The notes beneath the pieces were generated by a model that worked only from the letters and a program-made list of their open reading frames with translations, searched no databases and was not told where the DNA came from. 64,000 nt of DNA from Liolophura sinensis (Eukaryota; Mollusca; Polyplacophora; Chitonida; Chitonidae). The position numbers were made by a program, and so were the translations under genes. Location of the stretch: positions 95,039,805 through 95,103,804 of the forward strand of contig NC_088295.1 of NCBI RefSeq assembly GCF_032854445.1. The letters run 5' to 3'. Shown piece by piece: positions 7,501 through 63,045 of the stretch; the stretch's first letter is position 1, and each line of letters begins with the position of its first letter.

Positions 7501-10500
7501 CAGCTTAACCAGAGTTAAGGGTACTGTTTTCTATACAGCTCAACCAGATTAGGAGTACTGTAGTCTATACAGCTTAACCAGAGTATTGGTACTGTTTTCT
7601 ATACATCTTAACAAGTGTATGGGTACTGTTGTATATACAGCCTTACCAGACTATGGGTACTGTTGTCTATACAGCTTAACCACAGTATAGGTACTGTTTT
7701 CTATACAGCTTAACCAGATTATGGGTACTGTTTTATATACAGGTTAACCAGATTATGGGTACTGTTTTCTATACAGCTTAACCAGGATTAGGGTATTGTT
7801 GTCTATTCAGCTTAACCAAAGTATGGGTATGGTTGTCTATACAGCTTAACCAGAATATGGGTATTATTGTCTATACAGCTTAACCAAAGTATGGTAACTG
7901 TTGTCTGTACAGCTTAACTAGATTATGGGTACTGTTTTATATACAGCTTAACTAGAGTATGGGTACTGTTTTATATACTGCCAAGTTCCCATCATTACAT
8001 ACTCCTGTGGCATTTGGAAGACCACAGTCCAAACTGCCGAGTTCCCATCATTACATACTCCTGTGGCATTTAGGAGACGACAGCCTAAAGTGCCGCGTGT
8101 TCATCATTATATACCCCTGTGGCATTAGGAGACGACAGTCTTAACTGCCCAATTCAGATTATTACATACTCCTGTGGCATTTAGGAGACCACAGTCCAAA
8201 CTGCCGAGTTCCCATCATTACATACTCCTGTGGCATTTAGGAGACGACAGCCTAAAGTGCCGAGTTCCCATCATTACATACTCCTGTGGCATTTAGGAGA
8301 CGACAGCCTAAAGTGCCGCGTGTTCACCATTATATACTCCTGTGGCATTAGGAGACGACAGTCTTAACTGCCCAATTCAGATTATTACATACTCCTGTGT
8401 CATTTAGGAGACGACAGTCTATACTACCGAGTTCCAATTATCACATACCCATTTAGGAGGTGACTGTCTAAACTGCCGAGTTCCCATCATTACATACTCC
8501 TGTGGCATTTAGGAGACGACAGTCTTAACTGCCGAGTTCCCATCACTGTGTTTGAATAGTAAATAATAACTTTCATTCTGTTTGTCGTCTGGGTAGATGT
8601 GTACTCTTGAAAACTATGTCTACCAACACATTGTCCAAAGCTGTACTCGGGCCTGTGGTCCTATATACAATAAAGAATTACGAATGCAACACGAAAACGG
8701 CTTACATGCTGTTGTTATGTCCACAGTTGTCGTACCTAGCTATGGTGTTGTATACTCCGGCACTGGCGCTAAGTCAAGGTAAGTTACCTGGACAAACATC
8801 GTCATTCTGAAATGTAATGAATTGTTAACCGATGCTCAATATTGGGGACAGATATTCTAGTATCCGGTAAATTTGCTGTTCAAAAAACTGATAAAATTAT
8901 CTGCAATATATATTCCATAATCTATACTCTGAGCACTGTTATTGCCAAAAACATCCTAACTTTGAAACTGTTACTGCGCTACAGATAAGCGCTGTAAATA
9001 TTCCAGGTAATGTTTTTAGCAAATCGTGGCCAGGTACAAGTCATTATTTTCTCACCTGTTCGCATAAATGGTCATGAAACCCCAGTCCGTTAATCCGTTA
9101 ATCAAAACCTTCCCTTTTATATCTTAGTGGAACTGTTGCAGTGTGCGGTCTTTCCGTATGGCTGTCAATGGTCATCAAGCCTTCAGCCTTCTATCGATTC
9201 ACCACAAACTTATCCTTCTCTGTTGCAGTGTGCGGTCTTTCCGTATGACTGTTAATGGTCATCAAGCCTTCAGCCTTCTATCGATTCACCACAAACTTGT
9301 CCTTCTCTGTTGCAGTGTGCGGTCTTTCCGTATGACTGTCAGTGGTCATCAAGCCTTCAGCGTTCTATCGATTCACCACAAACTTGTCCTTCTCTGTTGC
9401 AGTGTGCGGTCTTTCCGTATGACTGTCAGTGGTCATCAAGCCTTCAGCCTTCTATCGATTCACCACAAACTTGTCCTTCTCTGTTGCAGTGTGCGGTCTT
9501 TCCGTATGACTGTCAGTGGTCATCAAGCCTTCAGCGTTCTATCGATTCACCACAAACTTGTCCTTCTCTGTTGCAGTGTGCGGTCTTTCCGTATGACTGT
9601 CAGTGGTCACCAAGCCTTCAGCCTTCTATCGATTCACCACAAACTTGTCCTTCTCTGTTGCAGTGTGCGGTCTTTCCGAATGACTGTCAGTGGTCACCAA
9701 GCCTTCAGCGTTCTATCAAGTCACCACAAACTTGTCCTTCTCTGTTGCAGTGTGCGGTCTTTCCGAATGACTGTCAGTGGTCATCAAGCCTTCAGCGTTC
9801 TATCGATTCACCACAAACTTGTCCTTCTCTGTTGCAGTGTGCGGTCTTTCCGAATGACTGTCAGTGGTCATCAAGCCTTCAGCGTTCTATCGATTCACCA
9901 CAAACTTGTCCTTCTCTGTTGCAGTGTGCGGTCTTTCCGAATGACTGTCAGTGGTCATCAAGCCTTCAGCGTTCCATCGATTCACCACAAACTTGTCCTT
10001 CTCTGTTGCAGTGTGCGGTCTTTCCGTATGGCTGTCAATGGTCATCAAGCCTTCAGCGCTTCATGTATTCCCCACAACTTGTCCCTCTCTATTTCAGTGA
10101 GTGGTCTTCCTATATGGCTATCAATTGTCATCAAGCCTTCAGCGTTTTATGTAGTCACCACAACTTGTCCCTCTCTATTTCAGTGAGTGGTCTTCCTATA
10201 TGGCTATCAATTGTCATCAAGCCTTCAGCGTTTTATGTGGTCACCACAACTTGTCCCTCTCTATTTCAGTGAGTGGTCTTCCTATATGGCTATCAATTGT
10301 TACCAAGCCTTCAGCGTTTTATGTAGTCACCACAACTTGTCCCTCTCTATTTCAGTGAGTGGTCTTCCTATATGGCTATCAATTGTCATCAAGCCTTCAG
10401 CGTTTTATGTATTCACCACAACTTGTCCCTCTCTATTTCAGTGAGTGGTCTTCCTATATGGCTATCAATGCTCATCAAGCCTTCAGCGTTTTATGTATTC

Positions 10501-13500
10501 ACCACAACTTGTCCCTCTCTATTTCAGTGAGTGGTTTTCCTATATGGCTATAAATTGTTACCAAGCCTTCAGCGTTTTATGTATTCACCACAACTTGTCC
10601 CTCTCTATTTCAGTGAGTGGTCCTCCTATATGGCTATCAATTGTTACCAAGCCTTCAGCGTTTTATGTAGTCACCACAACTTGTCCCTCTCTATTTCAGT
10701 GAGTGGTCTTCCTATATGCCTATCAATGCTCATCAAGCCTTCAGCGTTTTATGTAGTCACCACAACTTGTCCCTCTCTATTTCAGTGAGTGGTCTTCCTA
10801 TATGGCTATCAATTGTCATCAAGCCTTCAGCCTTCTATGTATTCACCACAAATTTGTTCCTCTCCATTTCAGTGAGTGGTCTTCCTATATGGCTATCAAT
10901 TGTCATCGGTGGATCAGTCTGTGTTATTTACACGTCCATAGTACGTAAAAGTTTTTGTTAAACTGGTTGCCATAGATATACAGTTTTGCACCCTTTCGTG
11001 CTAAAATATAATCAACAATAAATTAATGACATCTGAGAAAAGAAAAGATAGATTTCTGTGCTAAATTTGACAAGTGGAAAACACAAATTCGTGGTACTTT
11101 ATTTCCGCAGTCTGTACTGCGTCATATGCACAACACCACCAGACACAGCATGATAGCTCAATCAAAGTAGCAGTGAGACATTTGCTAACAACTCAGATAA
11201 TCCACGATCGCTTATTTTCTTTGGAGTTAATAACATGCCAGTGCCTTGAACTCATTTCTCGGCATTCATAAATTCCCAATGCCACGAGCTCATTTCCGTG
11301 GTAGTTTAGTATTTTGAAAGCTTAGAACATATTGGCAGTTTTAAATTCTTTATTCTTTGAGCCCAGTTTCTTGTAGTTTCAAACTTCCGGGAATTCAGGC
11401 CATAAAGAATATGGTATATAATCTCCCCTTTGAAACTGAAAACTTATTTGGGGGCTTTTGGGCCACCACGGAGTAGTCATGACAGGTATAGCGGCCCTGT
11501 CATGGCGACCCCACACGGCACACAAACCGCGCCCCGCTCAATCTAAGACCTTTTTGTATCCACAGGGCGGCATGAGAGCTGTAGTATGGAGTGACGTCTT
11601 CCAGTCCGCGGTCATGTTCCTGGGCCTAGTAGTAGCCTGTGTCTTCGGTACCATCCACACTGGAAGCCTAAGCCGAGTGTTTGAACTCTCTGCAGAGGGA
11701 GGGCGAATGCCATACTTTGAGTAAGTCATCCATCTAAGGCACAATGACGCGCTTTTCACGCACAATATGATGGCATTGATCAGATTTCGGTAAGTTATTC
11801 AGCTGTGCTTTTACCCACACTCGTCTGACCCCAGGCTCAGTTTGATACAAAACAACATACCTGTGTCATCACATCCACTCGTCTGACCCCAGGCTCAGTT
11901 TGATACAAGACAACATACCTGTGTCATCACATCCACTCATCTGACCCCAGGCTCACTTTGATACAAGACAACATACCTGTCTCATCACATTCACTCGTCT
12001 GACCCCAGGCTCAGCTTGATACAAGACAACATACCTGTCTCATCACATTCACTCGTCTGACCCCAGGCTCAGCTTGATACAAGACAACATACCTGTGTCA
12101 TCACATTCACTCGTCTGACCCCAGGCTCAGTTTGATACAAGACAACATACCTGTGTCATCACATTCACTCGTCTGACCCCAGGCTCAGTTTGATACAAGA
12201 CAACATACCTGTGTCATCACATTCACTCGTCTGACCCCAGGCTCAGTTTGATACAAGACAACATACCTGTGTCATCACATCCACTCGTCTAACCCCAGGC
12301 TCAGTTTGATACAACTTACTTGTGTCATCACATCCACTTGTCTGACCCCAGGCACAGTTTGATGCAAGACGACTTACTTGTGTCATCACATCCGCTCGTC
12401 TGACCCCAGACTCAGTTTGATACAAGACAACTTACTTGTGTCATCACATCCACTCGTCTGACCCCAGGCACAGTTTGATACAAGACAACTTACTTGTGTC
12501 ATCACATCCACTCGTCTGACCCCAGGCACAGTTTGATACAAGACAACTTACTTGTGTCATCACATTCACTCGTCTGACCCCAGGCACAGTTTGATACAAG
12601 ACAACATACCTGTGTCATCACATCCACTTGTCTGACCCCAGGCTCAGTTTGATACAAGACAACTTACTTGTGTCATCACATCCTCTCGTCTGACCCCAGG
12701 TTCAGTTTGATACAAAACAACATACCTGTGTCATCACATCCACTCGTCTGACCCCAGGCTCACTTTGATACAAGACAACATACCTGTGTCATCACATCCA
12801 CGCATCTGACCCCGGGCTCAGTTTGATACAAAACAACATACCTGTGTCATCACATCCACCCTTCTAACCCCAGGCTCAGTTTGATACAAGACAACATACC
12901 TGTGTCATCACATCCACGCGTCTGACCCCAGGCTCAGTTTGATACAAAACAACATACCTGTGTCATCACATTCACCCGTCTGACCCTAGGCTCAGTTTGA
13001 TACAAGACAACATACCTGTGTCATCACATTCACTCGTCTGACCCCAGGCTCAGTTTGATACAAGACAACATACCTGTGTCATCACATCCATTCGTCTGAC
13101 GCCAGGCTCAGTTTGATACAAGACAGCATACCTGTGTCACCACATCCACTCGTCTAACCCCAGGCTCAGTTTGATACAACTTACCTGTGTCATCACATCC
13201 ACTCGTCTGACCCCAGGCACAGTTTGATACAAGACGACTTACCTGTGTCATCACATCCGCTCGTCTGACCCCAGGCTCAGTTTGATACACGACGACTTCC
13301 TTGTGTCATCACATCCTCTCCTCTGACCCCAGACTCAGTTTGATACAAGACAACTTACTTGTGTCATCACATCCACTCGTCTGACCCCAGGCACAGTTTG
13401 ATACAAGACAACTTACTTGTGTCATCACATTCACTCGTCTGACCCCAGGCACAGTTTGATACAAAACAACATACCTGTGTCATCACATCCACGCGTCTGA

Positions 13501-16500
13501 CCCCAGGCTCAGTTTGATACAAGACAACTTTCTTGTGTCATCACATCCTCTCGTCTGACCCCAGGTTCAGTTTGATACAAGACAACATGCCTGTGTCATC
13601 ACATCCACTCGTCTGACCCCAGGCACAGTTTGATACAAGACAACATACCTGTGTCATCACATCCACGCGTCTGATCCCAGGCTCAGTTTGATACAAGACA
13701 ACATACTTGTGTCATCGCATCCATTTGTCTGACCCCAGGCTCACTTTGATACAAGACAACATACCTGTGTCATCACATCCACCCTTCTAACCCCAGGCTC
13801 AGTTTGATACAAGACAACATACCTGTGTCATCACATCCATTCGTCTGACGCCAGGCTCAGTTTGATACAAGACAACATACCTGTGTCATCACATCCACTC
13901 GTCTGACCCCAGGCTCAGTTTGATACAAGACAATATACTTGTGTCATCACACTCACTCGTCTGACCCCGGGCTCCGTTTGATACAAGACAACATACCTGT
14001 CTCATCACATTCACTCGTCTGACCCCAGGCTCACTTTGATACAAGACAACATACCTGTGTCATCACATTCACTCGTCTGACGCCAGGCTCAGTTTGATAC
14101 AAAACAGCATACCTGTGTCATCACATCTACTCGTCTGATCCCAGGCTCAGTTTGATACAACTTACTTGTGTCATCACATCCACTCGTCTGACCCCAGACT
14201 CAGATTGATACAAAACAACATACCTGTGTCATCACATCAACTCGTCTCACCCTAGTCTCAGATTGATACAAAACAACATACCTGTGTCATCACACCCATT
14301 CGTCTGACCCCAGGCTCAGTTTGATACAAGACAACTTACTTGTGTCATCACATCCACTTGTCTGACCCCAGGCTCAGATTGATACAAGACAACTTACCTG
14401 TGTCATCACATCCACGCCTCTGACCTTAGGTTTAGTTTGATAGAAGACAGCTTACCTGTGTCATGACATACATTTGTCTGACCTCTTGTTCACTCTGATA
14501 TAACAGCTTACCTGTATCGTGGTCTACACTCGTTTGACTTCTGGTTCAGTTTGATAGAAGACAGCTTACCTGTGTCATCACTTACTTTCGCCTGACGTCT
14601 GGTTAAGTTTATTGGAAGACAGCTTACCAATGCCATCACATACATTCGTCTGACCTCTGGTTCAGTTTGGTAGAAGAGAGCTTACCTGTGTCATCAGATA
14701 TTTTCCTCTGACCTCTTGTTCATTGTGATAAGACAGCTTACCTGTATTGTGTTCTACACTCGTCTGATCTCTGGTTCACTCTGATAGAAGGCAGCTTACC
14801 TGTGTCATCACATATTTTCGTCTGACCTCTTGTTCAGTGTGATATGGCAACTTACCTGTGTCATCACAGACATTTGACTGGCCTCTTGTTCATTGTGATA
14901 TGACAGCTTCCCTGTGTCATGGTCTACACTCGTCTTACCTCTGGTTCAGTTTGATACAAGACAACTTACCCGTGTCATCGAATCCACTCGTCTGACCTCA
15001 GGTTCAGTTTGATAGAAGACAGCTTACCTGTGTCATCACATAAATTCCTCTGACTACCGGTTCAGTTTGATTCAAGACAACTTACCTGTGTCATCACATC
15101 CACTCGTCTGTCTTAGTTTCAGTTTGATATGACTGCTTACTTGTGTCCTCACATACATTTGTCTGACCTCTTGATCAGTGTGATATGACAGCTTACTTGT
15201 GTCGTGTTCTACACTCGTCTTACCTCTGGTTCAGTTTGATACAAGTTTGATACAAGACAACTTACCCGTGTCATCACATCCACTCGTCTGACCTCAGGTT
15301 CAGTTTGATAGCAGACGACATACCTGTGTCATCACATCTATTCCTCTGACCACCTGTTCAGTTTGATACAAGACAACTTACCCGTGTCATCACATCCACT
15401 CGTCTGACCTCAGGTTCAGTTTGTTAGCAGACGACATGCCTGTGTCATCACATACATTCCTCTGACCACCGGTTCAGTTTGATACAAGACAACTTACATG
15501 TGTCATCACATTCACTCGTCTGTCTCAGGTTCAGTGTGATATGACAGCTTACTGTGTCATCACAGACATTTGTCTGACCTCTTCTTCAGTTTGATATGAC
15601 AGCTAACCTGTGTCGTGGTCTTACCTCTGGTTCAGTTTGATACAAGACAACTTACCCGTGTCATCGCATCCACTCGTCTAACCTGAGGTTCAGTTTGATA
15701 GAAGACAGCTTACCTGTGTCATCACATACATTCGTTTGACCTTTGGTTCACTGTAATATGACAACTTATTTGTATCGTGGTCTACAGTCGTCTGACCTCT
15801 GGTTCAGTGTGATAGAAGACAGCTTACCTGTGTCATCACATACATTCGTTTGACCTTTTGTTCACTGTGATATGACAGCTTACCTACATCGTGGTCTGCA
15901 CTCGTCTGACCCCTGGTTCAGTCTGATAGAAGATAGCTTACCTGTGTCATCATCTACACTCGTCTGTCTCAGGTTCAGTTTGATTTGACCGTTTACCTGT
16001 TTCTTCATCAACTCTCGTCTGGCATCAGGTTCAGTTTGGATCCGTTTATTCGCCACACGTTCTGGACCCTCACCTTTGGCGCTATAACCTCCTCCGTGTT
16101 TGACGACGGCGGTAACCAGGTGATGATACAGAGGTTCCTTAGCGTCGGCAAGCTACGAGACGCGCAGAAGTAAGACTTCGTCGTTCCCTTTTGCAAGTTT
16201 ACACAACTTCAATTTGAATATAACATTTGAAATTTCTGTAATTCTTAAGCAGTCTTATATTTTATTAAATTTATTAATGTCATTATTGTTTAACGACCTA
16301 CGCAGGAAGTATTCGTTTATGCGATAGCAGTCAGTTTCCTGATTAGAGGAAACCGACAGTTTCATTGTTAGAGGAAACCGGTAACTTCATGGTTAGAGGA
16401 AACCGCCAGTTTCATAGTTAGAGGCATTCCGCAGTTTCATGGTAAGAAGAAACCGATGGTTTCATGGTTAGCGGAAACAAACAGTTTCATGGTTAGAAGA

Positions 16501-19500
16501 AACTGACAGATTAATGGTTTGAGGAAACGGGCAGTTTCATGGTTAGAGGAAACCGGCGACTTTTGGCAAGTCACTTAAAAAGATTTTGCATTTAAAGTTT
16601 GCAGTAAGAACGCTATGTTTAACTGTTTCCGCAGGTCTGCTTGGATTACGAAATTCATCTACATTCTGTACACGACTATCCAATGTTACTCCGGGCTGGT
16701 GACATTCGCCTATTATCATGACTGTGACCCTCTGTTAGACGGCCGAATAGATGTCCGAGACCAGGTAAGTGGCTCATCTACATCCCATACACGACTATCC
16801 AGTGTTACTCCGGGCTGGTGACATTCGCCTATTATTATGACTGTGACTCTCTGTTAGACGGCCGAATAGATGTCCGAGACCAGGTAAGTGGCTTCATCTA
16901 CATCCCATACACGACTATCCAGTGTTACTCCGGGCTGGTGACATTCGCCTATTATCATGACTGTGACTCTCTGTTAGACGGCCCGATAGATGCCCGGGAC
17001 CAACAAAGTGGCTGATCTACATCCATTACACGACTATCCAGTGTTACTCCGGGCTGGTGACATTCGCCTATTATCATGACTGTGACCCTCTGTTAGACGG
17101 CCGAATAGATGTCCGAGACCAGGTAAGTGGCTGATCTACATCCCATACACGACTATCCAGTGTACACGGCTATCCAATGCTACTCCGGGCTGGTGACATT
17201 CGCCTATTATCATGACTGTGACCCTCTGTTAGACGGCCGAATAGATGTCCGAGACCAGGTAAGTGGCTCATCTACATCCCATACACGACTATCCAGTGTT
17301 ACTCCGGGCTGGTGACATTCCCTATTATCATGACTGTGACCCTCTGTTAGACGGCCGAATAGATGTCCGAGACTGGTGACATTCGCCTATTATCATGACT
17401 GTGACCCTCTGTTAGACGGCCGAATAGATGTCCGAGACCAGTAAGTGGCTCATCTACATCCCATACACGACTATCCAGTGTACACGGCTATCCAATGCTA
17501 CTCCGGGCTGGTGACATTCGCCTATTATCATTGACTTGTGACCCTCTGTTAGACGGCCGGATAGATGTCCAGTACCAACAAAGTGGCTGATCTACATCCG
17601 TTACACGACTATCCAATGCTACTCCGGGCTGGTGACATTCGCCTATTACCATGACTGTGACTCTCTGTTAGAGAGATGTCCGGGACCAACAAAGTGGCTG
17701 ATCTACATCCGTTACACGACTATCCAGTGTTACTCCGGGCTGGTGACATTCCCCTATTATCATGACTGTGACTCTCTGATAGACGAGCCGGATAGATGTC
17801 CGCGACTAACAAAGTGGCTGATCTACATCCTGTACACGGCTATCCAAGGTTACTCCGGGCTGGTGACATTCCCCTATTATCATGACTGTGACCCTCTGTT
17901 AGACGGCCGAATAGATGTCCGAGACCAGGTAAGTGCTGATCTACATCCGTTACACGACTATCCAGTGTTACTCCGGGCTGGTGACATTCGCCTATTATCA
18001 TGACTGTGACTCTCTGTTAGACGGCCGGATAGATGTCCGCGACTAACAAAGTGGCTGATCTACATCCTGTACACGGCTATCCAAGGTTACTCCGGGCTGG
18101 TGACATTCCCCTATTATCATGACTGTGACCCTCTGTTAGACGGCCGAATAGATGTCCGAGACCAGGTAAGTGGCTGATCTACATCCCATACACGACTATC
18201 CAGTGTTACTCCGGGCTGGTGACATTTCGCCTATTATCATGACTGTGACCCTCTGTTAGACGGCCGAATAGATGTCCGAGACCAGGTAAGTGGCCCATCT
18301 ACATCCCATACACGACTATCCAGTGTTACTCCGGGCTGGTGACATTCGCCTATTATCATGACTGTGACTCTCTGTTAGAGAGATGTCCGGGACCAACAAA
18401 GTGGCTGATCTACATCCGTTACACGACTATCCAGTGTTACTCCGGGCTGGTGACATTCGCCTATTATCATGACTGTGACTCTCTGATAGACGGCCGATAG
18501 ATGTCCGCGACTAACAAAGTGGCTGATCTACATCCTGTACACGGCTATCCAATGTTACTCCGGGCTGGTGACATTCCCCTATTATCATGACTGTGACCCT
18601 CTGTTAGACGGCCGAATAGATGTCCGAGACTGGTGACATTCGCCTATTATCATGACTGTGACCCTCTGTTAGACGGCCCGATAGATGCCCGGGACCAACA
18701 AAGTGGCTGATCTACATCCATTACACGACTATCCAATGTTACTCCGAACTGGTGACATTCGCCTATTATCATGACTGTGACTCTCTGTTAGAGAGATGTC
18801 CGGTACCAACAAAGTGGCTGATCTACATCCTGTACACGGCTATCCAGTGTTACTCCGGGCTGGTGACATTCGCCTATTATCATGACTGTGACTCTCTGTT
18901 AGACGGCCGGATAGATGTCCGGTACCAACAAAGTGGCTGATCTACATCCGTTACACGACTATCCAATAATACTCCGGGCTGGTGACATTCGCCTATTATC
19001 ATGACTGTGACTCTCTGTTAGACGGCCAGATAGATGCCCGGGACTAACAAAGTGGCTGATCTACATCCATTACACGACAATCCAATGTTACTCCGAACTG
19101 GTGACATTCGCCTATTATCATGACTGTGACTCTCTGTTAGACGGCCGGATAGATGTCCGGGACCAGGTTGGTGGCTGACCTACTTAGAACCTACAAGAAT
19201 GGCACGTTAGATAAGGAGTTCGGCTTCATACCGATCATGCGGTGACAAATATGATATATAGTCACTGCAGACAAGATTTTGAAGTAAGATTTCTCCTGAC
19301 TGATTGTAAGAGATTCTCGCACACCACTCAACATAGCTGTGTCCATGCCTGGGATTCTCTGGAGATACTGAAGGATATAGCACTGATCTCTGATCTCCAC
19401 TGTTATTTCCAGCTATCAAATCTGGCCGATGGCCTTGTGTATTTCAGATCTTCTCCCTGCACGTGATGGATATTCTTCATCATTTACCTGGCATACCTGG

Positions 19501-22500
19501 TCTCTTTCTGTCCTGTCTGCTCAGCGCAGCGCTCAGGTGAGCCTGGCCAAACAGTAATCATAGCAGTATGGGGAGATAGTAATCACACCGGAAAGGGGCC
19601 TCCGTGGCTCAATTGGTTAGCTCGCTACCGCAGCGTAATGACCCAGAAGCCTCTCACAAATGCGGTCGCTTTGAGTTCAAGTTCAGCTCATGCTGGCTTC
19701 CTCTCCGACCGTACATGGGGAGGTCTGTCAACAACGTGGGGATGGTCGTGAGTTTCCTCCCATCATAATGCTGACTGCTGTCGTATAAGTGAAATATTCT
19801 TGAGTACGACGTAAAACACCAATCAAATAAATAATTACACGGGAACTCTCTCTGGACAATACGTATTCATACTACCAGTATGTGTAGATAAATAGTATCT
19901 AAAAATACAAAACATAGAGTAAAAACAGCGGTCGGTGCTTGACAAGTGTATTAAAAGTTAAACCAGGATTAAATCAGTCTTGTCCTAAAACAAAACTACA
20001 CGAACATAAGTCCAGACTAAATTTAGTATACCCCCTGGAAATGCCAGGTTTCCTCCCAGCATAATGCTGGCCGTCATATAAGTGAAATATTCTTGAGTAC
20101 GGCGTAAAACACCAATCAAATAAATAAGTTTAATACACTTTTAAACATCTGGAGTCAGAGTAGTGACGTTAGTGTGCAAACCGTCACACAATTACCGTTG
20201 AAATCCGGTTTCCTGTTAATTTGCCTTAGTTTCAGATATTATTCCAACAAATTATTTATCAGTAATCACACAGGTAGGTTACTGAGGGGATTATCAATAA
20301 TCATACAAGTAGGGTAATGAGGGGATTATCAATAACCATACAGGTAGGGTGCTGGCGGGATTATCAATAATCATACAGGTAGGTTACTAAAAGGATTATC
20401 AATAATCATACAAGTAAGGTACTGAGAGGCTTATCAATAATCATACAAGTAGGGTACTAAGAGGATTATCAATAATCATACAAGTAGGGTACTGAGAGGA
20501 TTATCAATAATCATACATGTAGGGTACTGAGAGGATTATCAATAATCATACAAGTAGGGTACTGAGAGGATTATCAATAATCATACAAGTAGGGTACTGA
20601 GAGGATTATCAATAATCATACATGTAGGGTACTAAAAGGATTATCAATAATCATACAAGTAAGGTACTGAGAGGCTTATCAATAATCATACAAGTAGGGT
20701 ACTAAGAGGATTATCAATAATCATACAAGTAGGGTACTGAGAGGATTATCAATAATCATACATGTAGGGTACTGAGAGGATTATCAATAATCATACAAGT
20801 AGGGTACTGAGAGGATTATCAATAATCATACATGTAGGGTACTAAAAGGATTATCAATAATCATACAAGTAAGGTACTGAGAGGCTTATCAATAATCATA
20901 CAAGTAGGGTACTAAGAGGATTATCAATAATCATACAAGTAGGGTACTGAGAGGATTATCAATAATCATACATGTAGGGTACTGAGAGGATTATCAATAA
21001 TCATACAAGTAGGGTACTGAGAGGATTATCAATAATCATACAAGTAGGGTACTGAGAGGATTATCAATAATCATACATGTAGGGTACTAAGAGGATTATC
21101 AATAATCATACAAGTAGGGTACTGAGGGGATTATCAATAATCACACAGGTAGGGTACTGGGGGGATTATCAATAATCATACAAGTAGGGTACTGAGAGGA
21201 TTATCAATAATCATACAAGTAGGGTACTGAGAGGATTATCAATAATCATACAAGTAGGGTACTGAGAGGATTATCAATAATCATACATGTAGGGTACTAA
21301 GAGGATTATCAATAATCATACAAGTAGGGTACTGAGGGGATTATCAATAATCACACAGGTAGGGTACTGAGGGGATTATCAATAATCATACAGGTAGAGT
21401 ACTAAGAGGATTATCAATAATCATACAAGTAGGTTACTGAGAGGATTATCAATAATCATACAAGTAGGGTACTGAGAGGATTATCAATAATCATACATGT
21501 AGGGTACTGAGAGGATTATCAATAATCATACAAGTAGGGTACTGAGGGGATTATCAGTAATCATACAAGTAGGGTACTGGGGGGATTATCAATAATCATA
21601 CATGTAGGGTACTGAGAGGATTATCAATAATCATACAAGTAGGGTACTGAGGGGATTATCAATAATCATACAAGTAGGTTACTGAGAGGATTATCAATAA
21701 TCATACATGTAGGGTACTGAGAGGATTATCAATAATCATACAAGTAGGGTACTGAGGGGATTATCAGTAATCATACAAGTAGGTTACTGAGAGGATTATC
21801 AATAATCATACAAGTAGGGTACTGAGGGGATTATCAATAATCATACAAGTAGGGTACTGAGAGGATTATCAGTAATCATACAGGTAGGGTACTGAGAGGA
21901 TTATCAATAATCATACAAGTAGGTTACTGAGAGGATTATCAATAATCATACAGGTAGGGTACTGAGAGGATTATCAATAATCATACAAGTAGTGTGCTGA
22001 GGGGATTATCAATAATCATACAAGTAGGGTACTGAGGGGATTATCAATAATCATACAAGTAGGGTACTGAGAGGATTATCAATAATCATACAAGTAGGTT
22101 ACTGAGAGGATTATCAATAATCATACAAGTAGGGTACTGAGGGAATTATGAATAACCATACAGGTAGGTTACTAAGAGCATTATCAATAGTTATACAGGC
22201 AGGGTACTGGGAGGATTATCAGTAATCATACAGGTAGGGTACTGAGAGGATTATCAATAATCATACAAGTAGGGTACTGAGAGGCTTATCAATAATCATA
22301 CAAGTAGGGTACTGAGGGAATTATCAATAACCATACAGGTAGGTTACTAAGAGCATTATCAATAGTTATACAGGCAGGGTACTGGGAGGATTATCAGTAA
22401 TCATACAGGTAGGGTACTGAGAAGATTATCAATAATCATACATGTATGGTACTGACAGGATTATCAATAATCATACAGGTAGGGTACTAGGGGGATTATC

Positions 22501-34006: not shown

Positions 34007-34176
34007 CTAATAGGAGAACTGCTGCCCAGTGTTGGCGTGCACCTGCTTGGTCTGGCTGTGTTTGTCCTTGAGTTTGGCCTGAAGAAGGACGTGTTCCACC
34101 ACCCCAATCCTGATGTCCATCTGAGTGTTGTCCTTCTTCAGCTGCTGTATAGCCTGTTTGATTCTCACCAGGGGAG
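34007..34176 (-). CDS. IFT57 terminal coding exon 10 (aa 358-413, stop)
   Basis: Acceptor TGTGTGTTGCAG|CTCCCC. Encodes APLVRIKQAIQQLKKDNTQM then DIRIGVVEHVLLQAKLKDKH, ending QQFSY and TAG (34009-34007). End of the coiled coil. Confidence 0.95.
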
Positions 34177-46100: not shown

Positions 46101-49100
46101 CCTCTTCCCCCACCATACATGTAAATGTTTGCCCATCTCTCCCTACCATACATGTAAATGTTTATACTTGTAAATGTCTGTCCTCTTCCCCCTACCATAC
46201 ATGTTTGTCCTCTTTCCCCTACAATACAGGTGCATGTTTGTCCTCTTCCCCCACCATACATGTAAATGTTTGTTCATCTCTCTCCACCACACATGTAAAT
46301 GTTTATACATATAAATGTTTGTCCTCATCCCCCTACCTTACTTGTACATGTTTGTCCTCTTTCCCCCACCATACATGTGCATGTTTGTCCTCTTCCTCCA
46401 CCATACATGTACATGTTTGTCCTCTTTCCCCCACCATACATGTAAATGTTTGCCCATCTCTCCCCACCATACATGTAAATGTTTATACATGTAAATGTCT
46501 GTCCTCTTCCCCCCACCATACATGTACATGTTTGTCCTCTTTCCCCCACCATACATGTACATGTTTGTCCTCTTTCCCCCACCATACATGTACATGTTTG
46601 TCCTCTTCCCCCCACCATGCATGTACATGTCTGTCCTCTTCCCCCACCATACATAAATATGTTTGTCCTCTCCTTCCAACCATACATGTACAGGTTTGTA
46701 CTCTCCTTCCAACCATACATGTACATCTTTGTCCTCTTCCCCTAACCATACATGTACATGTCTGTCCATCTCTCCCCACCATACATGTAAATGTTTGTCC
46801 TCTTCCCCCACCACACATGTACATGTTTGTCCATCTCTCATGTCCCACCATACACAAACATATTTGTCACTCCCTACCCACCATACACAAACATCTTTGT
46901 CCATCTCTCACCACCAAACATGTACATGTTTGTCCTATTCCCCCCCCCCCCCAACCATACACAAACATGTTTGTCCATCTCTCCCCACCATACACAAACA
47001 TGTTTGTCCCTCTCTCCCCACCATACACAAACATATTTGTCCTCTCTCCCCACCATGCATGTACATGTTGGTCTGTCCGCTCCCCTCCCCCCCCCCGATA
47101 TATGTATATCTCTCTCCTCTTCCCCCCACCACATATGTACATGTTTGTCCACCTCTCCCCACCATACACAAACATATTTGTCCTCTCTCCCCACCATGCA
47201 TGTACATGTTGGCCTGTGCCCTCCTCCCCCCACTGATATATGTATATCTTTCTCCTCTTCCCCCCACCATATATGTACATGTTTGTCCACCTCTCCCCAC
47301 CATACACAAACATATTTGTCCTCTCTCCCCACCATGCATGTACATGTTTGCCTCTCCTCTCCCCTGCCCCCCCCCCCCCACCCCCACCATATATGTATAT
47401 CTTTGTTCTCTTCCCCCACCACACATGTACATGTCTGTCCCTCTCTTCCAACCATACACAAACATATTTGTCCTCTCTCCCCACCATGCGTGTACATGTT
47501 TGTCCATCTCCCCCCACTATACATGTACAAGTGTCTCTTATCACTGTCGCCCCATATACTTAACCTCACTGATCATGACAACTGTGTTATTCTCAGTGGA
47601 ACATATGAACGAACCTCTTCCAAGAAAATGCTGTGTTTTTTAGAGCCTCGTCGGACAAGCGATCCAGCACATAGATACAGTGTTCTCCACAGCCTTGCTT
47701 CAGTTTTGATGGCGGAAAATCCACTGTGTGACCCTGTGAAGAAAGAAAAGAATAAAAAAATGTTTAAAGTCTCAAAAAGTAAAAAGTTCATCACTTTATA
47801 GAAAACAAACAAAACAAATTAGTGTTTCCATTTGTGCAGCTTGTGCATTGTAAGTGGGAGATTTCCAGTAACCTTCCATACACGTAACTGACAAAATCAG
47901 TTATTTACTGGCACAGCTTCTTTACTTCCAGAATATTTACAGTGTAACCAGACAGCATGTGTTTATACTCTCAGTAAATAATTCTGAAAGGTAATATTTA
48001 CTCTCCTCAAGAAACATGCATATACATGTGACAAGGAGACATTCCAGAACGGTAAGCGCTATCAACGCGGATCCTTGCTATTTCTACAGACATGTTCGTT
48101 GCACAGGTGACTAAACACATGATCTCCTCAACTTGCATATCCTGCTCAATATTCATCCTACCAACCAGCGTCTGGCTTACATGAGCACATGCACATGTAC
48201 ACGTATGTGTTAGTTTTACATGTACAGATCACCAGACAAAAGACAACTTACAAAATTCCTCACTTCCTCCAAGATACTGGATATGGTAGCATTGGGGTCA
48301 TCATACTGAAACACCAACAACAGACACCATTACACACCGCACAGGTAAACAGACATATGTCCTCTATGACAGTTTGATAGGACAACCATAATTTTACCTT
48401 GCTGCATGTATGAGGCTGCAGGTTTTTGGAAGAAGCAGGTTTAACTAAAACTAGGATACAACTAGGTGCATTTTATTTATTTATTTATTTGATTGGTGTT
48501 TTACACTGTACTCAAGAATATTTCACTTATACAACGGCGGACAGCATTATGGTGGGAAGAAACCAGGCAAAACCCGGCAGAAACCTACGACCATTCGCAG
48601 ATTACTGGCAGACTTTCCCACATACAACCGGAGAGGAAGCCAGCATGAGCTGCACTTGAAATCAGAACGCCTGCATTGGTGAGAGGCTCCTGGGTCATTA
48701 TGTTCCACTAGTGTGCTGACCAACTGAGCCACGGAGGCCCTCTGATGTATTTCACATTAAGTCTTTCTTAACCTTGTATTTAAATACTTACTATTGATCC
48801 CTGTTTGGGTTTATAAATTATCCATAAAAGTGCACTTTGGCTCACTTATGCTGTTTAGTATAAACAGAACTACAAAAACACAGCATCAACAGTACTCATA
48901 TATGCACAGTTCATAATAAAGGCATCTGTGATTTCAGTCTGAGAGGTAAACATACTGGCTGAGGAGAATAATACAGGATAACACTTCCATTATGATAGTA
49001 TATTTCTAGAACAAGCATGTGATGATCGCTGTAGTAACTTTCAATGTGAATGAACTGTACCCGTACGGGAAACTTTCACATCCAAACATGAAAGGTTTGT

Positions 49101-49814
49101 AAAAAGTCATTATTCTACACATTCTTTTCAGCAGACATCTTTTTTCATCTTTTCATTTTTCTTTTAATACGGACATGAAAACGATATTAATAGTATAAAA
49201 GCATGGAAATATGCATACAACGTAAATGAGTGTGACAATGTTATCCTCTGTGCTGGCTCCACAAAAATAAGCAATATAGTTATTACTGACAATCTACATT
49301 TTGTACATGTAGTTAATAAATAATAGAGAACCATTACCTCCTGCGGCTGTTCAAACTGTTTGCCTGCCTTCCTTAACAACCAAGCGGCGAGAGAAGTGAA
49401 CATAAAAAACTGCTCTCCAGGGTTGGTGGCTATGGCAAAGTAATGTCTGTAAGGGAAAAGATCGAAACATTAGCACCCAAAACCAATCTGCAGTCCCTAT
49501 GCCGGGTCATTACACCACTGATAACCTTATACCTGTCACACAGAAAAGTGACTTGCATCAGTAGCAACACTATTTTTAGGACCACTTCAACACATTCCCA
49601 CAAATTGACATGTAGCATCCTATTATGCAGTATTTAAGGTCTGTATTAAATCCCACCTTGACAATGGCTTCAGATTCATTTTCCTGCTGAATTCTTGCTC
49701 ATACTCAAGAAGCCTCAGTTTATCCAAGAGGTCCTCCATGACCACAAATGGCATGAAGGCTAGGCCAGGGCCACCTTCCTCCCCATCCTCCCCACGCTTC
49801 TTGTCCTCTGACAT
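34007..49814 (-). CDS. Intraflagellar transport protein 57 (IFT57), complete, 10 coding exons
   Basis: Subunit of the IFT-B complex (peripheral IFT-B2 part), needed for anterograde transport in cilia; the N-terminal half is a calponin-homology-like domain and the C-terminal half a coiled coil that pairs with IFT20 in studied species. Minus-strand exons, 5' to 3': 49814-49657, 49446-49338, 48305-48252, 47733-47615, 44183-44090, 42557-42477, 40078-39956, 39404-39138, 38410-38344, 34176-34007. Every junction is GT-AG with matching phase; total 1242 nt, 413 aa plus stop, against ~429 aa in vertebrates. Landmarks: MEDLLDKLRLLEYEQEF, NPGEQFFMFTSLAAWL, DFPPSKLKQGCGEH, an acidic linker, ERVLPQLKVTIRTDNK, DWRVHVDQMHQH, SREKYINNQLEHLL, GGVTERSRKLAE and MDIRIGVVEHVLLQ. 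An in-frame TAG lies just upstream of the ATG. Confidence 0.96.
34521..34797 (-). mobile_element. tRNA-derived SINE, minus orientation
   Basis: Reverse complement of the 19596 element: tail at the low end (TTTGATTGGTGTTTTACG), tRNA-like head at the high end (AACCAACTGAGCCACCAAGG). Near full length, in IFT57 intron 9. Confidence 0.87.
34798..35089. other. IFT57 intron 9, unique part
   Basis: Non-repetitive sequence between SINE and array. Nothing seen. Confidence 0.4.
35090..35830. repeat. IFT57 intron 9 minisatellite, 56-bp unit, ~13 copies
   Basis: Core GTCTGGGATTGCTTAAGCAT followed by GGGCCAAAACTGTCCCGCTC. Merges directly into the related 58-bp family. Confidence 0.93.
35830..37035. repeat. 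IFT57 intron 9 minisatellite, 58-bp unit, ~21 copies
   Basis: Core GTCTGGTATTGCTTAAGCAC followed by AGGCCTGAGRGCTGTCCCGC. Shares the ATTGCTTAAGCA and CTGTCCCGCTCA parts with the preceding 56-bp family, so the two are sister expansions. Confidence 0.94.
37036..37440. other. IFT57 intron 9, unique part
   Basis: About 400 bp of non-repetitive intron between arrays. Nothing recognised. Confidence 0.4.
37441..38345 (-). repeat. IFT57 intron 9 array of exon-9 donor units, 67 bp, ~13 copies
   Basis: On the minus strand each unit contains the end of exon 9 plus its donor: GGCAGCAGTATGACTGATGG then AG|GTAAGT. About 28 nt of exon and the donor are exactly matched in the best units, for example around 37550. 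The array abuts the real donor at 38343. 67 is not a multiple of 3. Confidence 0.95.
38344..38410 (-). CDS. IFT57 coding exon 9 (aa 336-357)
   Basis: 67 nt, acceptor GTATTCCTCAG|GTGACA, donor GATGGAG|GTAAGT, ending in phase 1. Encodes VTEDLEKVKQEMEERGSSMT then DG. Its last ~28 nt and the donor are repeated through the array downstream in the intron. Confidence 0.94.
38523..38690 (-). mobile_element. Degenerate SINE fragment, minus orientation
   Basis: TTAATTGGTGTTTTACGC, then ACTCAAGAATATTTCACTTG and GCTGGCAGACCTTCC match the SINE body; the tRNA-like head is missing or decayed. In IFT57 intron 8. Confidence 0.7.
39138..39404 (-). CDS. IFT57 coding exon 8 (aa 247-335)
   Basis: 267 nt, acceptor TGTTTCAG|GACTGG. 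Main coiled-coil exon: DWRVHVDQMHQHKEGIETSL, LHSEITRTLEKIGSREKYIN, GGVTERSRKLAE. Donor GAG|GTTGGC departs from consensus at +3 and +4, but the junction to exon 9 (VTEDLEKVKQEMEE) is in frame and fits the family. Confidence 0.95.
39590..39945. repeat. IFT57 intron 7 minisatellite, ~30-bp unit, ~12 copies
   Basis: Core GGTGGATGATTAGGTGATGA followed by ATGAATACC. Starts close to the exon 7 donor (on the minus strand) but has no clear match to the exon edge. Confidence 0.85.
39956..40078 (-). CDS. IFT57 coding exon 7 (aa 206-246)
   Basis: 123 nt, acceptor TGTTTTCAG|GAGTTA, donor AACAAG|GTGAGG. Contains EILESSTDAADWKLEVERVL then PQLKVTIRTDNK, nearly invariant in IFT57. Confidence 0.95.
40310..41650. 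repeat. IFT57 intron 6 minisatellite, 26-bp unit, ~51 copies
   Basis: Core CAGTGGGACAACAGCTTTAC plus TGTGGC or TGTGGG. Contains repeated CAGCTTTAC; not related to exon 6 or 7 edges. Confidence 0.94.
41651..41795. mobile_element. Possible decayed dispersed repeat (family B)
   Basis: GTGGAGGAAACCAGAGC and TTACTGACAAACTTTCC are shared, with divergence, by 45565-45690. Possibly an old SINE-like family; boundaries uncertain. Confidence 0.4.
41796..42476. other. IFT57 intron 6, unique part
   Basis: Non-repetitive sequence up to the exon 6 donor. Nothing recognised. Confidence 0.4.
42477..42557 (-). CDS. IFT57 coding exon 6 (aa 179-205)
   Basis: 81 nt, acceptor CACGACCAG|GACACT, donor CATAAG|GTAATC. 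Very acidic linker DTHDDEDYEDDEPMMDLEGL then KKLGHHK. Confidence 0.9.
42590..43385. repeat. IFT57 intron 5 minisatellite, 22-bp unit, ~36 copies
   Basis: Core GAAACCAATAACATCACATG plus GT. Many substituted copies. Not related to exon 6, which lies 30 bp away. Confidence 0.9.
43500..44060. repeat. IFT57 intron 5 second minisatellite, 35-bp unit, ~16 copies
   Basis: Core CACACAGAACCATGTTCTGT followed by CTGAACACAGAAACT. A three-part higher-order pattern (with GGACTACATTCATCC variants) recurs. Begins ~30 bp inside the exon 5 donor without carrying it. Confidence 0.9.
44090..44183 (-). CDS. IFT57 coding exon 5 (aa 147-178)
   Basis: Acceptor GTGTTACAG|ACCTCA, donor ATCCAG|GTAAAT, 94 nt, phase 0 at end. 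Acidic: PQYPEEEMGEENIIEDDSEL then TLHQVEKDMIQ. Confidence 0.92.
44200..45545. repeat. IFT57 intron 4 minisatellite, ~36-42-bp unit, ~35 copies
   Basis: Core ACATCCTTACCACACAGCAA then TACCACAACAGCTACAGCT; internal TACAGC reiteration changes unit length. On the minus strand the array ends at the acceptor of exon 5, and the sequence there (GTAGCTTTAGTGGTGTTGAT, then GTTTGTGTTACAG|ACC) resembles a diverged unit. Confidence 0.9.
45565..45690. mobile_element. Possible decayed dispersed repeat (family B), second copy
   Basis: CGTTTAACACCATACTC, GAGTGGAGGAAACTGGAGTG and GGCTACTGACAAACTTC align with 41651-41795. Low-copy evidence only. Confidence 0.4.
45745..47535. repeat. IFT57 intron 4 second minisatellite, ~32-bp unit, ~55 copies
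   Basis: Core CCACCATACATGTACATGTT followed by TGTCCTCTTCCC; contains palindromic ATACATGTACATGT and C-runs up to 13 (46941-46952, 47369-47381). Heterogeneous units. Long frames on both strands follow from composition. Confidence 0.92.
47615..47733 (-). CDS. IFT57 coding exon 4 (aa 108-146)
   Basis: Acceptor CTTCACAG|GGTCAC, donor AAGAG|GTTCGT, 119 nt. Encodes GHTVDFPPSKLKQGCGEHCI then YVLDRLSDEALKNTAFSWK, the end of the CH-like domain. Confidence 0.94.
48252..48305 (-). CDS. IFT57 coding exon 3 (aa 90-107)
   Basis: 54 nt, acceptor GTGTTTCAG|TATGAT, donor AATTTT|GTAAGT, phase 0 both ends. Encodes YDDPNATISSILEEVRNF, conserved in the family. Confidence 0.93.
48467..48742 (-). mobile_element. 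tRNA-derived SINE, minus orientation
   Basis: Full-length copy: tail TTATTTGATTGGTGTTTTAC at the low end, head CCAACTGAGCCACGGAGGC at the high end. In IFT57 intron 2. Confidence 0.88.
48743..49337. other. IFT57 intron 2, unique part
   Basis: AT-rich non-repetitive intron. Nothing recognised. Confidence 0.4.
49338..49446 (-). CDS. IFT57 coding exon 2 (aa 53-89)
   Basis: Acceptor CTTACAG|ACATTA, donor CAGGAG|GTAATG, 109 nt. Reads HYFAIATNPGEQFFMFTSLA then AWLLRKAGKQFEQPQE, one of the most conserved IFT57 stretches. Confidence 0.95.
49657..49814 (-). CDS. IFT57 coding exon 1 (aa 1-52)
   Basis: ATG at 49814-49812; an in-frame stop TAG two codons upstream fixes this as the first Met. Encodes an acidic leader, then MPFVVMEDLLDKLRLLEYEQ, the start of the CH-like domain. 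Donor CAAG|GTGGGA, phase 2. The bases TTGATCTAG|GTGAGG before the ATG could be an acceptor of a 5' UTR intron. Confidence 0.93.
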
Positions 49815-58600: not shown

Positions 58601-58609
58601 ATACATTCT

Positions 58610-58640
58610 TCTGTGAGGTATAAAACACCAATCAACGTTT
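58610..58640 (+). mobile_element. SINE tail fragment
   Basis: GGTATAAAACACCAATCAAC matches the 3' end of the SINE family. Too short to tell more. Confidence 0.5.
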
Positions 58641-59462: not shown

Positions 59463-59599
59463 TCTTTTTATGTATTAATACTGTTACCAGAAAATATACA
59501 CGACCTCACTATGTTTAGATAGTATTTTTGATTTAGTTCGCATATGTAATTAGCATATGTATTGCTGTACTCAAATACTGTGCGGATCCCAAACGGGTG

Positions 59600-59720
59600 G
59601 GGGCATGCCAATGGTACCTGTTGCTGCCTCCCTTAGCGCTCTGAGAGATCAGAACAAGGAGCCGGGTTAGTTGGCCCGGTGTCAGTATAATGTGACTCGG
59701 TAAGGTGTCATGCTAGTTGA
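59600..59720. mobile_element. Possible dispersed repeat fragment
   Basis: GGCCCGGTGTCAGTATAATG followed by TGACTCGGTAAGGTGTCATG resembles a repeat I associate with bivalve genomes; only one copy here, so this rests on memory. Confidence 0.3.
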
Positions 59721-60458: not shown

Positions 60459-60590
60459 ATGAAATTCATGCTGCCCTTGCTGTGCACCCTTATGTGCCTC
60501 GCGGCGCTCGTCCGGTGCAATGAGGGGTTCGGGGAAGGTCAGGCGCAAGAACAAGCCCTGGACGGGGAGGATCTACCCGGGGCCCTAAGG
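60459..60590 (+). CDS. Secreted-protein gene, coding exon 1
   Basis: ATG at 60459 begins a typical signal sequence; the mature part starts near NEGFGEGQAQEQ. The last 24 nt, GATCTACCCGGGGCCCTAAG and G, with the donor, are repeated in the following intron. Confidence 0.65.
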
Positions 60591-61669
60591 GTAAGCATAC
60601 GGGGTAGTGGGGTTGGGGCTGGGGGAATCTACCCGAGCCCTCAGGGTAAGCATACGGGGTAGTGGGGTTGGGGGTGGGGGTGGGGGGATCTACCCGAGCC
60701 CTCAGGGTAAGCATACGGGGTAGTGTGGATGGGGGTGGGGGGGGTGGGGATCTACCCGAGCCCTCAGGGTAAGCATACGGGGTAGTGTGGATGGGGGTGA
60801 TCTACCCAGGCCCTCAGGGAAATAAGAGAGGATCAACTCGGGACCGTGGGGAAAGCATACGGGAAAAGAGTTGAAGGATCAACTTGGGGCCCTCAGTTTA
60901 ACCATATGGGGCAAGAGGTGGGGGATCTACCCAGTGCCCTGTGGATAAACATAACGTAGAAGGTCAGGTTTAGCGTGAAGTACTTGGTCCATTGGGAAGT
61001 ACTTGGGTCTGAGAAAAGTACCTGGCTTAGAGTGAAGCAGCTGGTTCTGAGTGAAATACCTGGTTCTGAGTGAAGTACTTGGCTTTGAGTGAAGTACCTA
61101 GCTTTGAGTGAAGTGCCCGGTTCAGAGTGAAATACCTGGTTCTGAGTGAAATACTTGGTTCTGAGTGAAATACCTGGTTTTGAGCGAAATACCTGGTTCT
61201 GAGTGAAGTACTTGGCTTTGAGTGAAGTACCTGGTTCAGAGTGAAATACCTGGTTCGGAGAGAAGTACCTGGCATGGAGTGAAGCACCTGGTTCTGAGTG
61301 AAATACCTGGTTCTGAGTGAAGTACTTGGCTTTGAGTGAAGTACCTGGTTCAGAGTGAAATACCTGGTTCGGAGAGAAATACCTGGCATGGAGTGAAGCA
61401 CCTGGTTCTGAGTGAAATACCTGGTCCTGAGTGAAGTACTTGGCTTTGAGTGAAGTACCTGGTTCAGAGTAAAATACCTGGTTCTGAGTTAAGTTCCTGG
61501 CTTGCAGTACCTGATTAAAGGTAACCGCTTAGGTATGTCTCGTGTTTTCAGACTCTGCGAGAGGCGGAGGAGTCACACACGAGGCTGAAGCGGGCATGCT
61601 CCTGGTGGTTCCAGTGGAAGGTAACTGGTGCCCGTGTGGATCACGAGGAGGTGACAGGCCAACTGGATG
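60459..61669 (+). CDS. Small secreted protein / possible peptide precursor, first two exons (3' part not found)
   Basis: Exon 1 60459-60590 (44 codons, donor CTAAGG|GTAAGC, phase 0) and exon 2 61552-61669 (118 nt, acceptor TGTTTTCAG|ACTCTG, donor GGATG|GTGAGA, phase 1). The product starts with a signal peptide (MKFMLPLLCTLMCLAALVRC), then an acidic stretch, a Lys-Arg pair and CSWWFQWK. This layout suits a peptide-hormone or neuropeptide precursor, but I recognise no family. An alternative donor in exon 2 (TGGAAG|GTAACT, 61621) would end it 49 nt earlier. No later exon was found before the window ends. Confidence 0.6.
60591..60965 (+). repeat. Array of exon-1 donor units, ~55-62 bp, ~7 copies
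   Basis: Units of GATCTACCCGAGCCCTCAGG|GTAAGCATACGGGG plus a G-rich linker. Donors at 60591 (genuine), 60646, 60707 and 60769 are intact; further copies near 60819, 60853, 60895 and 60941 have progressively lost the donor. Linkers such as GGGGTTGGGGGTGGGGGTGG are quadruplex-prone. Confidence 0.93.
60970..61505. repeat. 20-bp minisatellite, ~26 copies
   Basis: Core TTCTGAGTGAAATACCTGG, often with GAAGTACTTGG. Lies between the exon-1 array and exon 2; higher-order blocks of about 120 bp are visible (61060-61180, 61200-61320, 61320-61440). Confidence 0.9.
61552..61669 (+). CDS. Secreted-protein gene, coding exon 2
   Basis: Reads TLREAEESHTRLKRACSWWF then QWKVTGARVDHEEVTGQLD. Frame agrees with exon 1. 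The donor end CTGGATG|GTGAGACACTG is echoed in the next array. Confidence 0.6.
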
Positions 61670-62000
61670 GTGAGACACTGCCACAGAGCACACTCACATG
61701 CTGGACAGTAAAACTATACTCTATTAGCACATTTTCACGTGCTGTCTGATGAGACACTGACACAAAGCACACTCGCATGCTGGGCAGTAAAGTCATGCTC
61801 TATTAGCACACACTCACGTGCTGGATGATGAGACACTGACACACATGCTGAACAGTGAGATCATACTCTATTAGCACACACTCACGCGCTGGATGATGAG
61901 ACACTGACACAAAACACACCCACATGCTGGACAGTAAAACCATACCCTACCAGCACACATTCACACGCTTCATAGTGAGACATTGACACAGAACACGCAC
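61670..62000 (+). repeat. Array of exon-2 donor-like units, ~70-90 bp, ~5 copies
   Basis: Starts at the donor CTGGATG|GTGAGACACTG; later units have CTGGATGATGAGACACTG (61821, 61891), in which the GT is lost, then CACATGCTGGACAGTAAAAC and TACTCTATTAGCACAC. Confidence 0.85.
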
Positions 62001-63045
62001 ACATGCTGGACAGTGAGACCACACATTGCATACACACACCCTGGACAGTGAGACCATACACTGCACACATATACCCTGGACAGTGAGACCATACACTTGG
62101 CACAAACACCCTGAACAGTGAGACCATACACAGTGAGACCATACACTTGGCACAAACACCCTGGACAGTGAGACCATACACTGAACACAAACACCCCGGA
62201 CACAAACACCCTGGACAGTGAGACCATACACTGCACACACACATCCTGGACAGTGAGACCATACACTGCACACATATACGCTGGACAGTGAGACCATACA
62301 CTGCACACACACACAACCTGGACAGTGAGACCATATAATGGACACACACACCCTGGACAGTGAGACCATACACTGCACACACGCATCCTGGACAGTGAGA
62401 CCATACACTGCACACATATACCCTGGACAGTGAGACCATACACTGCACACACACACAACCTGGACAGTGAGACCATATAATGGACACACACACCCTGGAC
62501 AGTGAGACCATACACTGCACACACACATCCTGGACAGTGAGACCACACATTGCATACACACACCCTGGACAATGAGACCATACGCTGGACACACACACCC
62601 CGGACAATGAGACAATACACTACACACAAGCACCCTGGACAGTGAGACCATACACTGGACACAAACACCCTGGACAGTGGGATCATACATTGCAAGCAAA
62701 CACCTTGGACAGTGAGACCGTACACTGGACAGAGAGACCATACAATGGACACACACACACCCTGGAGAATAAGACCATACACTGGACACAAAGACCCTAG
62801 ACAGTGAGACCATACACTGGACACACACACCCTGGACAGTGGGACCATACATTGCAAGCAAACACCTTGGACAGTGAGACCATACACTGGACAGAGAGAC
62901 CATACACTGGACACACACACACCCTGGAGAATAAGACCATACACTGGACACAAAGACCCTGGACAGTGAGACCATACACTGGACACACACACCCTGGACA
63001 ATCAGACCATACACTGGACACCCCCCCCCCCCCCCCGACAATGAG
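62000..63045. repeat. ~34-bp minisatellite, ~30 copies
   Basis: Core CCTGGACAGTGAGACCATAC then ACTGCACACACACA. CTGGACAGTGAGACCATAC resembles the exon 2 end CTGGATGGTGAGACACTG, so it may be a derived family of the preceding array. Ends in a C-run of 18 (63021-63038). A ~190-bp block is duplicated (62640-62830 versus 62790-63000). Confidence 0.9.

Follow-up and report, generated by a model that had tools for sequence, protein, structure and literature searches.

The question raised by this locus is why tandem arrays lying in the introns of three genes repeat, unit after unit, the edge of the neighbouring exon together with its splice signal. The window, which is the whole stretch of DNA analysed (64,000 nucleotides of the chiton Liolophura sinensis), holds an SLC5-like (sodium:solute symporter) gene, an IFT57 gene on the opposite strand and a putative secreted-protein gene, termed the third gene below. 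The arrays are best explained as 'mirage' minisatellites, in which tandem duplication struck at more or less random places and the duplications spanning a junction were tolerated by splicing. A probability of about two in three is assigned to this reading.

Arrays were detected with Tandem Repeats Finder (TRF) and merged by hand. The 37 arrays obtained make up 62.6% of the window. The introns of the three genes total 42,139 bases, of which 30,924 lie in arrays. The units of 26 arrays were compared by local alignment with 47 splice-site windows in both orientations. For eight of these units the best match was the adjacent junction itself, in sense orientation, crossing the junction and with a clear margin; the remaining 18 units gave best scores of 16-32. 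The proposal in the initial annotation that arrays carry their own exon edge and splice signal in sense was thus borne out at all eight main junctions, listed here with the span and the alignment score.

9133..10907, plus strand: 87-bp array of about 20 copies with the acceptor of SLC5-like exon 4 and 35 nt of that exon (score 65, next best 23)
11818..16028, plus strand: 58-bp array of about 72 copies with the SLC5-like exon 6 acceptor (score 31, next best 24)
16655..19165, plus strand: 119-bp array of about 21 copies with about 104 nt of SLC5-like exon 7 and its donor (score 140)
22804..23874, plus strand: 84-bp array of about 13 copies with the SLC5-like exon 9 edge and donor (score 74)
28112..29505, plus strand: 55-bp array of about 25 copies with the SLC5-like exon 13 donor, the alignment covering 10 nt of exon (score 50)
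37443..38371, minus strand: 67-bp array of about 14 copies with the donor of IFT57 exon 9 and 28 nt of that exon (score 106)
60565..60799, plus strand: 61-bp array of about 4 copies with the third gene exon 1 edge and donor (score 76)
61663..62021, plus strand: 79-bp array of about 5 copies with 7 nt of third gene exon 2 and the donor region (score 54)

The functional copy was the last one in the array of SLC5-like exon 4 (junction 10872/10873), the first one in that of exon 7 (junction 16764/16765) and the copy ending at 38344 in that of IFT57 exon 9. The exon 9 array of the SLC5-like gene adjoins the junction 22812/22813. The narrowest margin of the eight was found for the exon 6 array (junction 16028/16029), where the copies near the exon have diverged and the TRF spans stop at 15984-16000, and the exon 13 array (junction 28111/28112) is a weaker case. 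The unit beside exon 9 of IFT57, a minus-strand gene, matched its own donor in sense, which agrees with the earlier statement that orientation follows the gene. Exon 11 of the SLC5-like gene had been listed as a further, weaker case; this was not upheld, as the adjacent unit matched other sites best. A 35-bp array at 61994-63021 was considered as a ninth case and was not counted, its own junction (third gene exon 2) being on top by 22 against 20 only.

Comparison of the eight junction units in 28 pairs gave a best local score of 26. Seven of the 28 pairs scored above the highest of 20 shuffles, the values against the shuffle maximum being 26 against 17, 23 against 22 and 21 against 20 in three of them. 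The eight units do not form one family and the unit differs by locus, in accordance with the annotation. An element common to many introns (introner or transposed intron element) was also looked for, and no shared unit was present among the eight.

The units hold an exon edge with GT or AG, as in the model of intron gain by AGGT tandem duplication, where introns are born from a duplicated exon segment (quoted in PMC4974935). The two are alike in that tandem duplication yields extra GT or AG signals; they differ in that the chiton arrays lie inside existing introns and no new intron was seen. Every one of the eight units matched a single end of its intron and not both. Alignment of the SLC5-like protein with seven homologues revealed gapless joins of exons 4 and 7 to their neighbour exons, and a gapless join at exon 9 against six of the seven, the homologue P0142 alone having an insert there; these three exons are therefore continuous without inserts relative to most homologues. 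A one-residue gap lies four residues off the exon 6 junction against three of the seven, and exon 13 falls within a poorly aligned tail. The annotation had brought in the AGGT model as a known route of intron gain, and for these arrays it is regarded as very improbable.

The structure is not confined to the window. A sample of 285 kb was taken from the same genome outside the window, with pieces named L and a number, and the same structure recurs in it; of ten candidate stretches, eight have an open frame that enters the first copy as judged by eye. One of the ten (L002) is a distant part of the array in L003, and L051 is unclear. The exon beside one array belongs to MTH1, supported by a PDB match (E 5.4e-20), and the array includes only about 6 nt of it; another belongs to V-ATPase subunit a, supported by homology (E 3.2e-17); a third lies in a NUBP-type gene, whose Pfam match (E 2.4e-7) is above Pfam's cut-off. 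The antistasin and NUDIX Pfam matches at sample junction arrays were below their cut-offs, and five of the ten sample peptides searched against Pfam gave no match. Several other cases on pieces L001 to L008 were read by eye as parts of one ABCA-like gene. The claim of a recurring local process was thus confirmed elsewhere in the genome.

A 68-bp junction unit in the ABCA-like gene was found at L002:7531-9996, L115:1-2000 and L003:1-1838. Judged from these three pieces, it appears to form a single array of about 14.3 kb, in which the same exon edge and donor would recur some 200 times. An array of about 14 kb exceeds the mean read of 8.3 kb (PMC11068029), and a 65-bp array of the window is interrupted by 200 N at 54914-55113, which is a scaffold gap at a repeat; both would suit an assembly artefact. 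The copies nevertheless differ from each other (between-copy mean identity 0.88-0.98 in 14 arrays), 36 of the 37 window arrays are shorter than 3 kb, many loci are affected, and the same source describes an assembly built from PacBio HiFi reads. An artefact is accordingly considered highly implausible.

The number of junction arrays was compared with random placement, since 8 of 26 units carrying a junction could suggest a general preference of duplication for exon-intron junctions of every kind. In an intron-only null, the seed unit was placed randomly on the intron and every array was collapsed to one unit. Six of 24 arrays were clear junction arrays against 3.9 expected (P = 0.17). With the third gene removed, 5 or 6 of 22 were found against 3.6 expected (P = 0.27 and 0.12, respectively). 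The array of third gene exon 2 was not included here, as the end of the intron in which it lies is not known. In a window null, the units were re-placed randomly with arrays collapsed and coding sequence barred. Known exons gave 6 of 45 against 5.7 expected (P = 0.52), with 5 donors against 3.1 (P = 0.19), a run that misses exons 6 and 13 because the TRF span ends short; predicted exons gave 6 of 45 against 4.0 expected (P = 0.21; donors P = 0.058).

For the sample, exons were predicted from codon use and splice matrices, and 67 were called. Tried on the window, part of which had served to train it, the predictor recovered 17 of 26 exons with 18 calls, both edges being exact for 11 of them. 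For the sample null, 11 of 152 arrays crossed a predicted junction where 9.6 were expected (P = 0.36), comprising 7 donors against 4.9 (P = 0.22) and 4 acceptors against 4.6. Random seeding yields about four junction arrays of 24 because the array-free introns are short and the units long. The units of junction arrays were longer than those of the others (median 67 against 33 bp, P = 0.0002), as geometry alone predicts. Junction arrays were shown, within the power of these tests, to be about as common as short introns and long units predict. One of the two options in the annotation, namely that duplication is favoured at junctions, is not demonstrated by these counts, which did not significantly exceed random placement in the window (P = 0.17-0.52) or the sample (P = 0.36). 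A general preference for junctions, for which the small donor surpluses and a borderline excess with the weak cases counted would speak, is regarded as improbable.

The mirage reading would account for these observations as follows. In array-rich parts of the genome, short segments would be tandemly duplicated at near-random places and would then expand. A first duplicated segment lying inside an intron would give an ordinary intronic array, such as the following.

4819..6004, no strand assigned: 53-bp array without a junction in intron 1 of the SLC5-like gene, an example of an ordinary intronic array (TRF; unit alignment)

Where the segment straddled an exon edge, the exon-adjacent copy would still join the exon to its splice site and the mRNA could stay unchanged, all further copies would fall in the intron, and growth would be ordinary minisatellite expansion. 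Duplications within coding sequence would presumably be purged by selection. Splicing would have to choose the exon-proximal site, which for donors is the first one transcribed. The IFT57 record, whose database protein is the product of the exon-proximal donor and identical to the gene model, is consistent with use of that site, and so is the alignment of the SLC5-like protein through exons 4 and 7 and, for six of seven homologues, exon 9. A possible rule of tolerance is that a strong donor is committed before the decoys are transcribed, which would fit the strength of the repeated donors described below.

The condition of the decoy sites was analysed in 13 donor arrays, a 14th (NUBP) having been excluded as its junction was set one base off. 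GT was intact in 177 of 201 located decoy donors, and for 108 of the 201 the score equalled or exceeded that of the real donor. If the first decoy were used, 11 of the 13 arrays would give a frame shift or an added stop. The retention of GT varied between arrays, with 3 of 16 located decoys in the array of SLC5-like exon 7, 12 of 12 in that of exon 9 and 1 of 4 in that of third gene exon 2. Selection on the splice dinucleotides within 14 arrays showed no consistent sign, GT having disappeared from the majority of exon 7 copies and persisting in most others; for one of the 14 (L004a) the dinucleotide examined was the wrong one. Similarity plotted against distance from the exon gave a nominally significant gradient in 2 of the 10 arrays with a usable value and was otherwise flat.

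The strength of the donors is where a departure from chance was observed. In the window, the 6 repeated donors averaged 6.9 bits against 3.6 bits for the 18 others (P = 0.005 with the end of SLC5-like exon 2 corrected, 0.0035 before). In the sample, the 9 repeated donors were stronger than those of the 58 other predicted exons (P = 0.025), and the acceptors, 5 repeated against 62, showed no difference in strength (P = 0.53). Repeated junctions comprised 15 donors against 7 acceptors (P = 0.067). These tests involve few sites and several comparisons, and the P values are uncorrected.

Some results depart from placement that is simply random. The intron-only count with the weak exon 13 case included was 7 of 24 (P = 0.07), which is borderline, and with at least 10 nt of exon demanded it was 7 of 24 (P = 0.046). 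Donor motifs of at least 5 bits lay inside the units of 23 of 114 sample arrays against 8.2 expected (2.8 times), a value reached in 0 of 3000 placements; arrays were collapsed for this count, which includes one array twice (L002 and L003). This 2.8-fold enrichment counts against the mirage reading because plain random seeding does not predict it. In the window, such motifs occurred in the units of 6 of 35 arrays against 3.2 at 5 bits or more (P = 0.10) and in 6 against 2.3 at 6 bits (P = 0.026). With a 7-bit cut-off the sample gave 4 against 1.8 expected (P = 0.10). An earlier annotation-free motif test against non-array DNA (22 of 121 against 5.6) was discarded as overstated, because junctions absorbed by arrays were missing from its control.

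These data bring in the alternative that duplication is favoured at, or retained because of, strong 5' splice sites, either since it is promoted by the donor motif or by U1 binding during transcription or since rows of donors help the gene. U1 protects long introns against early cleavage, which would be one such benefit. The stronger repeated donors in window and sample, the unremarkable acceptors, the enriched strong-donor motifs and the surplus of donors would all be expected under it. The small numbers, the uncorrected tests and the lack of a general junction excess speak against it, as does the flanking sequence. Enrichment in the window was limited to strong donors with a coding flank (the codon model being trained on the same genes), while in the sample motifs without and with a coding flank were both enriched 3.2 times at 5 bits. 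Over the range of cut-offs the sample values were 2.1-3.2 times without and 2.6-6.7 times with a coding flank (Fisher 0.17-1.0). Exon linkage of the donor bias is not established because sample motifs were enriched with or without the coding flank. Window and sample disagree, and they do not separate a motif-driven bias from an exon-linked one or from tolerance. The alternative is judged possible rather than probable. It may also be suggested, quite tentatively, that strong 5' splice sites are preferentially involved in the birth or the tolerance of minisatellites, such that a strong donor, committed once transcribed, could bear up to about 200 near-identical decoys downstream of it, and weak donors could not, nor could acceptors, whose functional copy comes last. 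If so, the arrays would be natural experiments measuring first-come-first-served choice of splice sites.

The phenomenon itself is known from amphioxus, where 'mirage' minisatellites were named in Adh3 and in the globin genes BflGb6 and BflGb9, and where the data suggest undisturbed regular splicing (PMC3087553, citing Canestro et al. 2002). Like those arrays, the chiton units span the exon-intron boundary with its splice signal, differ by locus, and keep AG or GT in many and not all copies. Unlike them, they belong to a mollusc and not a cephalochordate, are more numerous and longer (4 to 72 copies in the window and about 14 kb elsewhere), and sit in a region about half of which consists of arrays. 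The association with donor strength found in the chiton is not mentioned for amphioxus in the passages of PMC3087553 consulted. The chiton case adds a new phylum, a larger scale and a comparison with chance. No report of junction arrays in molluscs was present in the literature listings and abstracts searched, most subscription journals and one Conus gene-intron paper being outside that search. A curiosity of a few amphioxus genes is hereby extended to many genes of a second phylum. Introns in which anywhere from a few to about 200 near-identical donors compete also provide a natural setting for testing how the spliceosome selects between equivalent sites. The results also advise caution, since striking repeats at junctions can equal the prediction of chance where arrays fill the introns.

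The chiton arrays resemble ordinary intronic or chromosome-end minisatellites in unit length, in their head-to-tail copies and in being dense near both ends of contig C1; they differ in having coding sequence and a splice site within the unit and in that the ends of other contigs are less dense. At C1 1.00-1.39 Mb, tandem arrays made up 47% of the twenty pieces of 10 kb sampled; six probes lay no more than 2 Mb from the C1 ends, and in five of them the share was 41-95%. The share was 0-62% at C1 3-90 Mb (three of seven probes being zero), 0-40% in seven probes near the ends of other contigs, and 7.9% (3-13%) in 15 scattered 3-kb pieces. The value of 47% was rejected as a genome-wide density, being atypical beside the 7.9% of the scattered pieces. 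By way of observation, arrays form about half of the DNA near both C1 ends (L001-L020, C1 1.00-1.39 Mb; L036-L048). The repeat table of the published assembly (PMC11068029) lists 0.08% as 'other (simple repeat, microsatellite, RNA)' and 27.89% repeats overall; the species name given with that assembly was corrected in PMC12441733. A chromosome-end location of the window was considered and is not claimed, its sequence having found no match among 59 short probes over C1 0-2.4 and 94.3-96.4 Mb, with gaps of up to 180 kb near 95 Mb. A search of a phage collection gave no match.

The gene models were hand-built and checked by reading frame, and are as follows.

4207..32669, plus strand: SLC5-like (sodium:solute symporter) gene, 14 exons (frame, Pfam SSF, PDB SLC5 transporters, homologue alignment)
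SLC5-like exons 1-7, plus strand: 4207-4554, 6086-6151, 8727-8778, 10873-10940, 11566-11720, 16029-16169, 16635-16764
SLC5-like exons 8-14, plus strand: 19448-19536, 22685-22812, 24424-24581, 27118-27302, 27729-27829, 28014-28111, 32535-32669
34007..49814, minus strand: IFT57 gene, 10 exons (413 aa aligned with 100% identity to the IFT57 of Liolophura sinensis; Pfam IFT57, E 9.5e-154)
IFT57 exons 1-5, minus strand: 49657-49814, 49338-49446, 48252-48305, 47615-47733, 44090-44183
IFT57 exons 6-10, minus strand: 42477-42557, 39956-40078, 39138-39404, 38344-38410, 34007-34176
60459..61669, plus strand: putative secreted-protein gene (third gene), exons 60459-60590 and 61552-61669 (reading of sequence)

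The SLC5-like protein matched Pfam SSF with E 4.1e-38 and its PDB matches were SLC5 transporters; the end of its exon 2 was shifted from 6148 to 6151 by the homologue alignment. The IFT57 model is identical to the NCBI protein of the species, to which the window belongs. The end of exon 1 of the third gene was set to 60590 by frame, a one-base shift. Its two junction cases depend on the reading of the sequence, because the gene gave no Pfam hit and no homologue was found for it. The reading over 60459-61669 opens with a signal-like stretch and contains a Lys-Arg site, after which comes ACSWWFQWK, as in a putative secreted peptide precursor, and the product is perhaps a lineage-specific neuropeptide.

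Copies resembling a short interspersed nuclear element (SINE) derived from tRNA were noted by eye at 19597-19835, 34530-34790 and 48470-48740 of the window, ending in caatcaaataaata. A 40-base piece from another copy of this putative SINE is present in sample piece L008.
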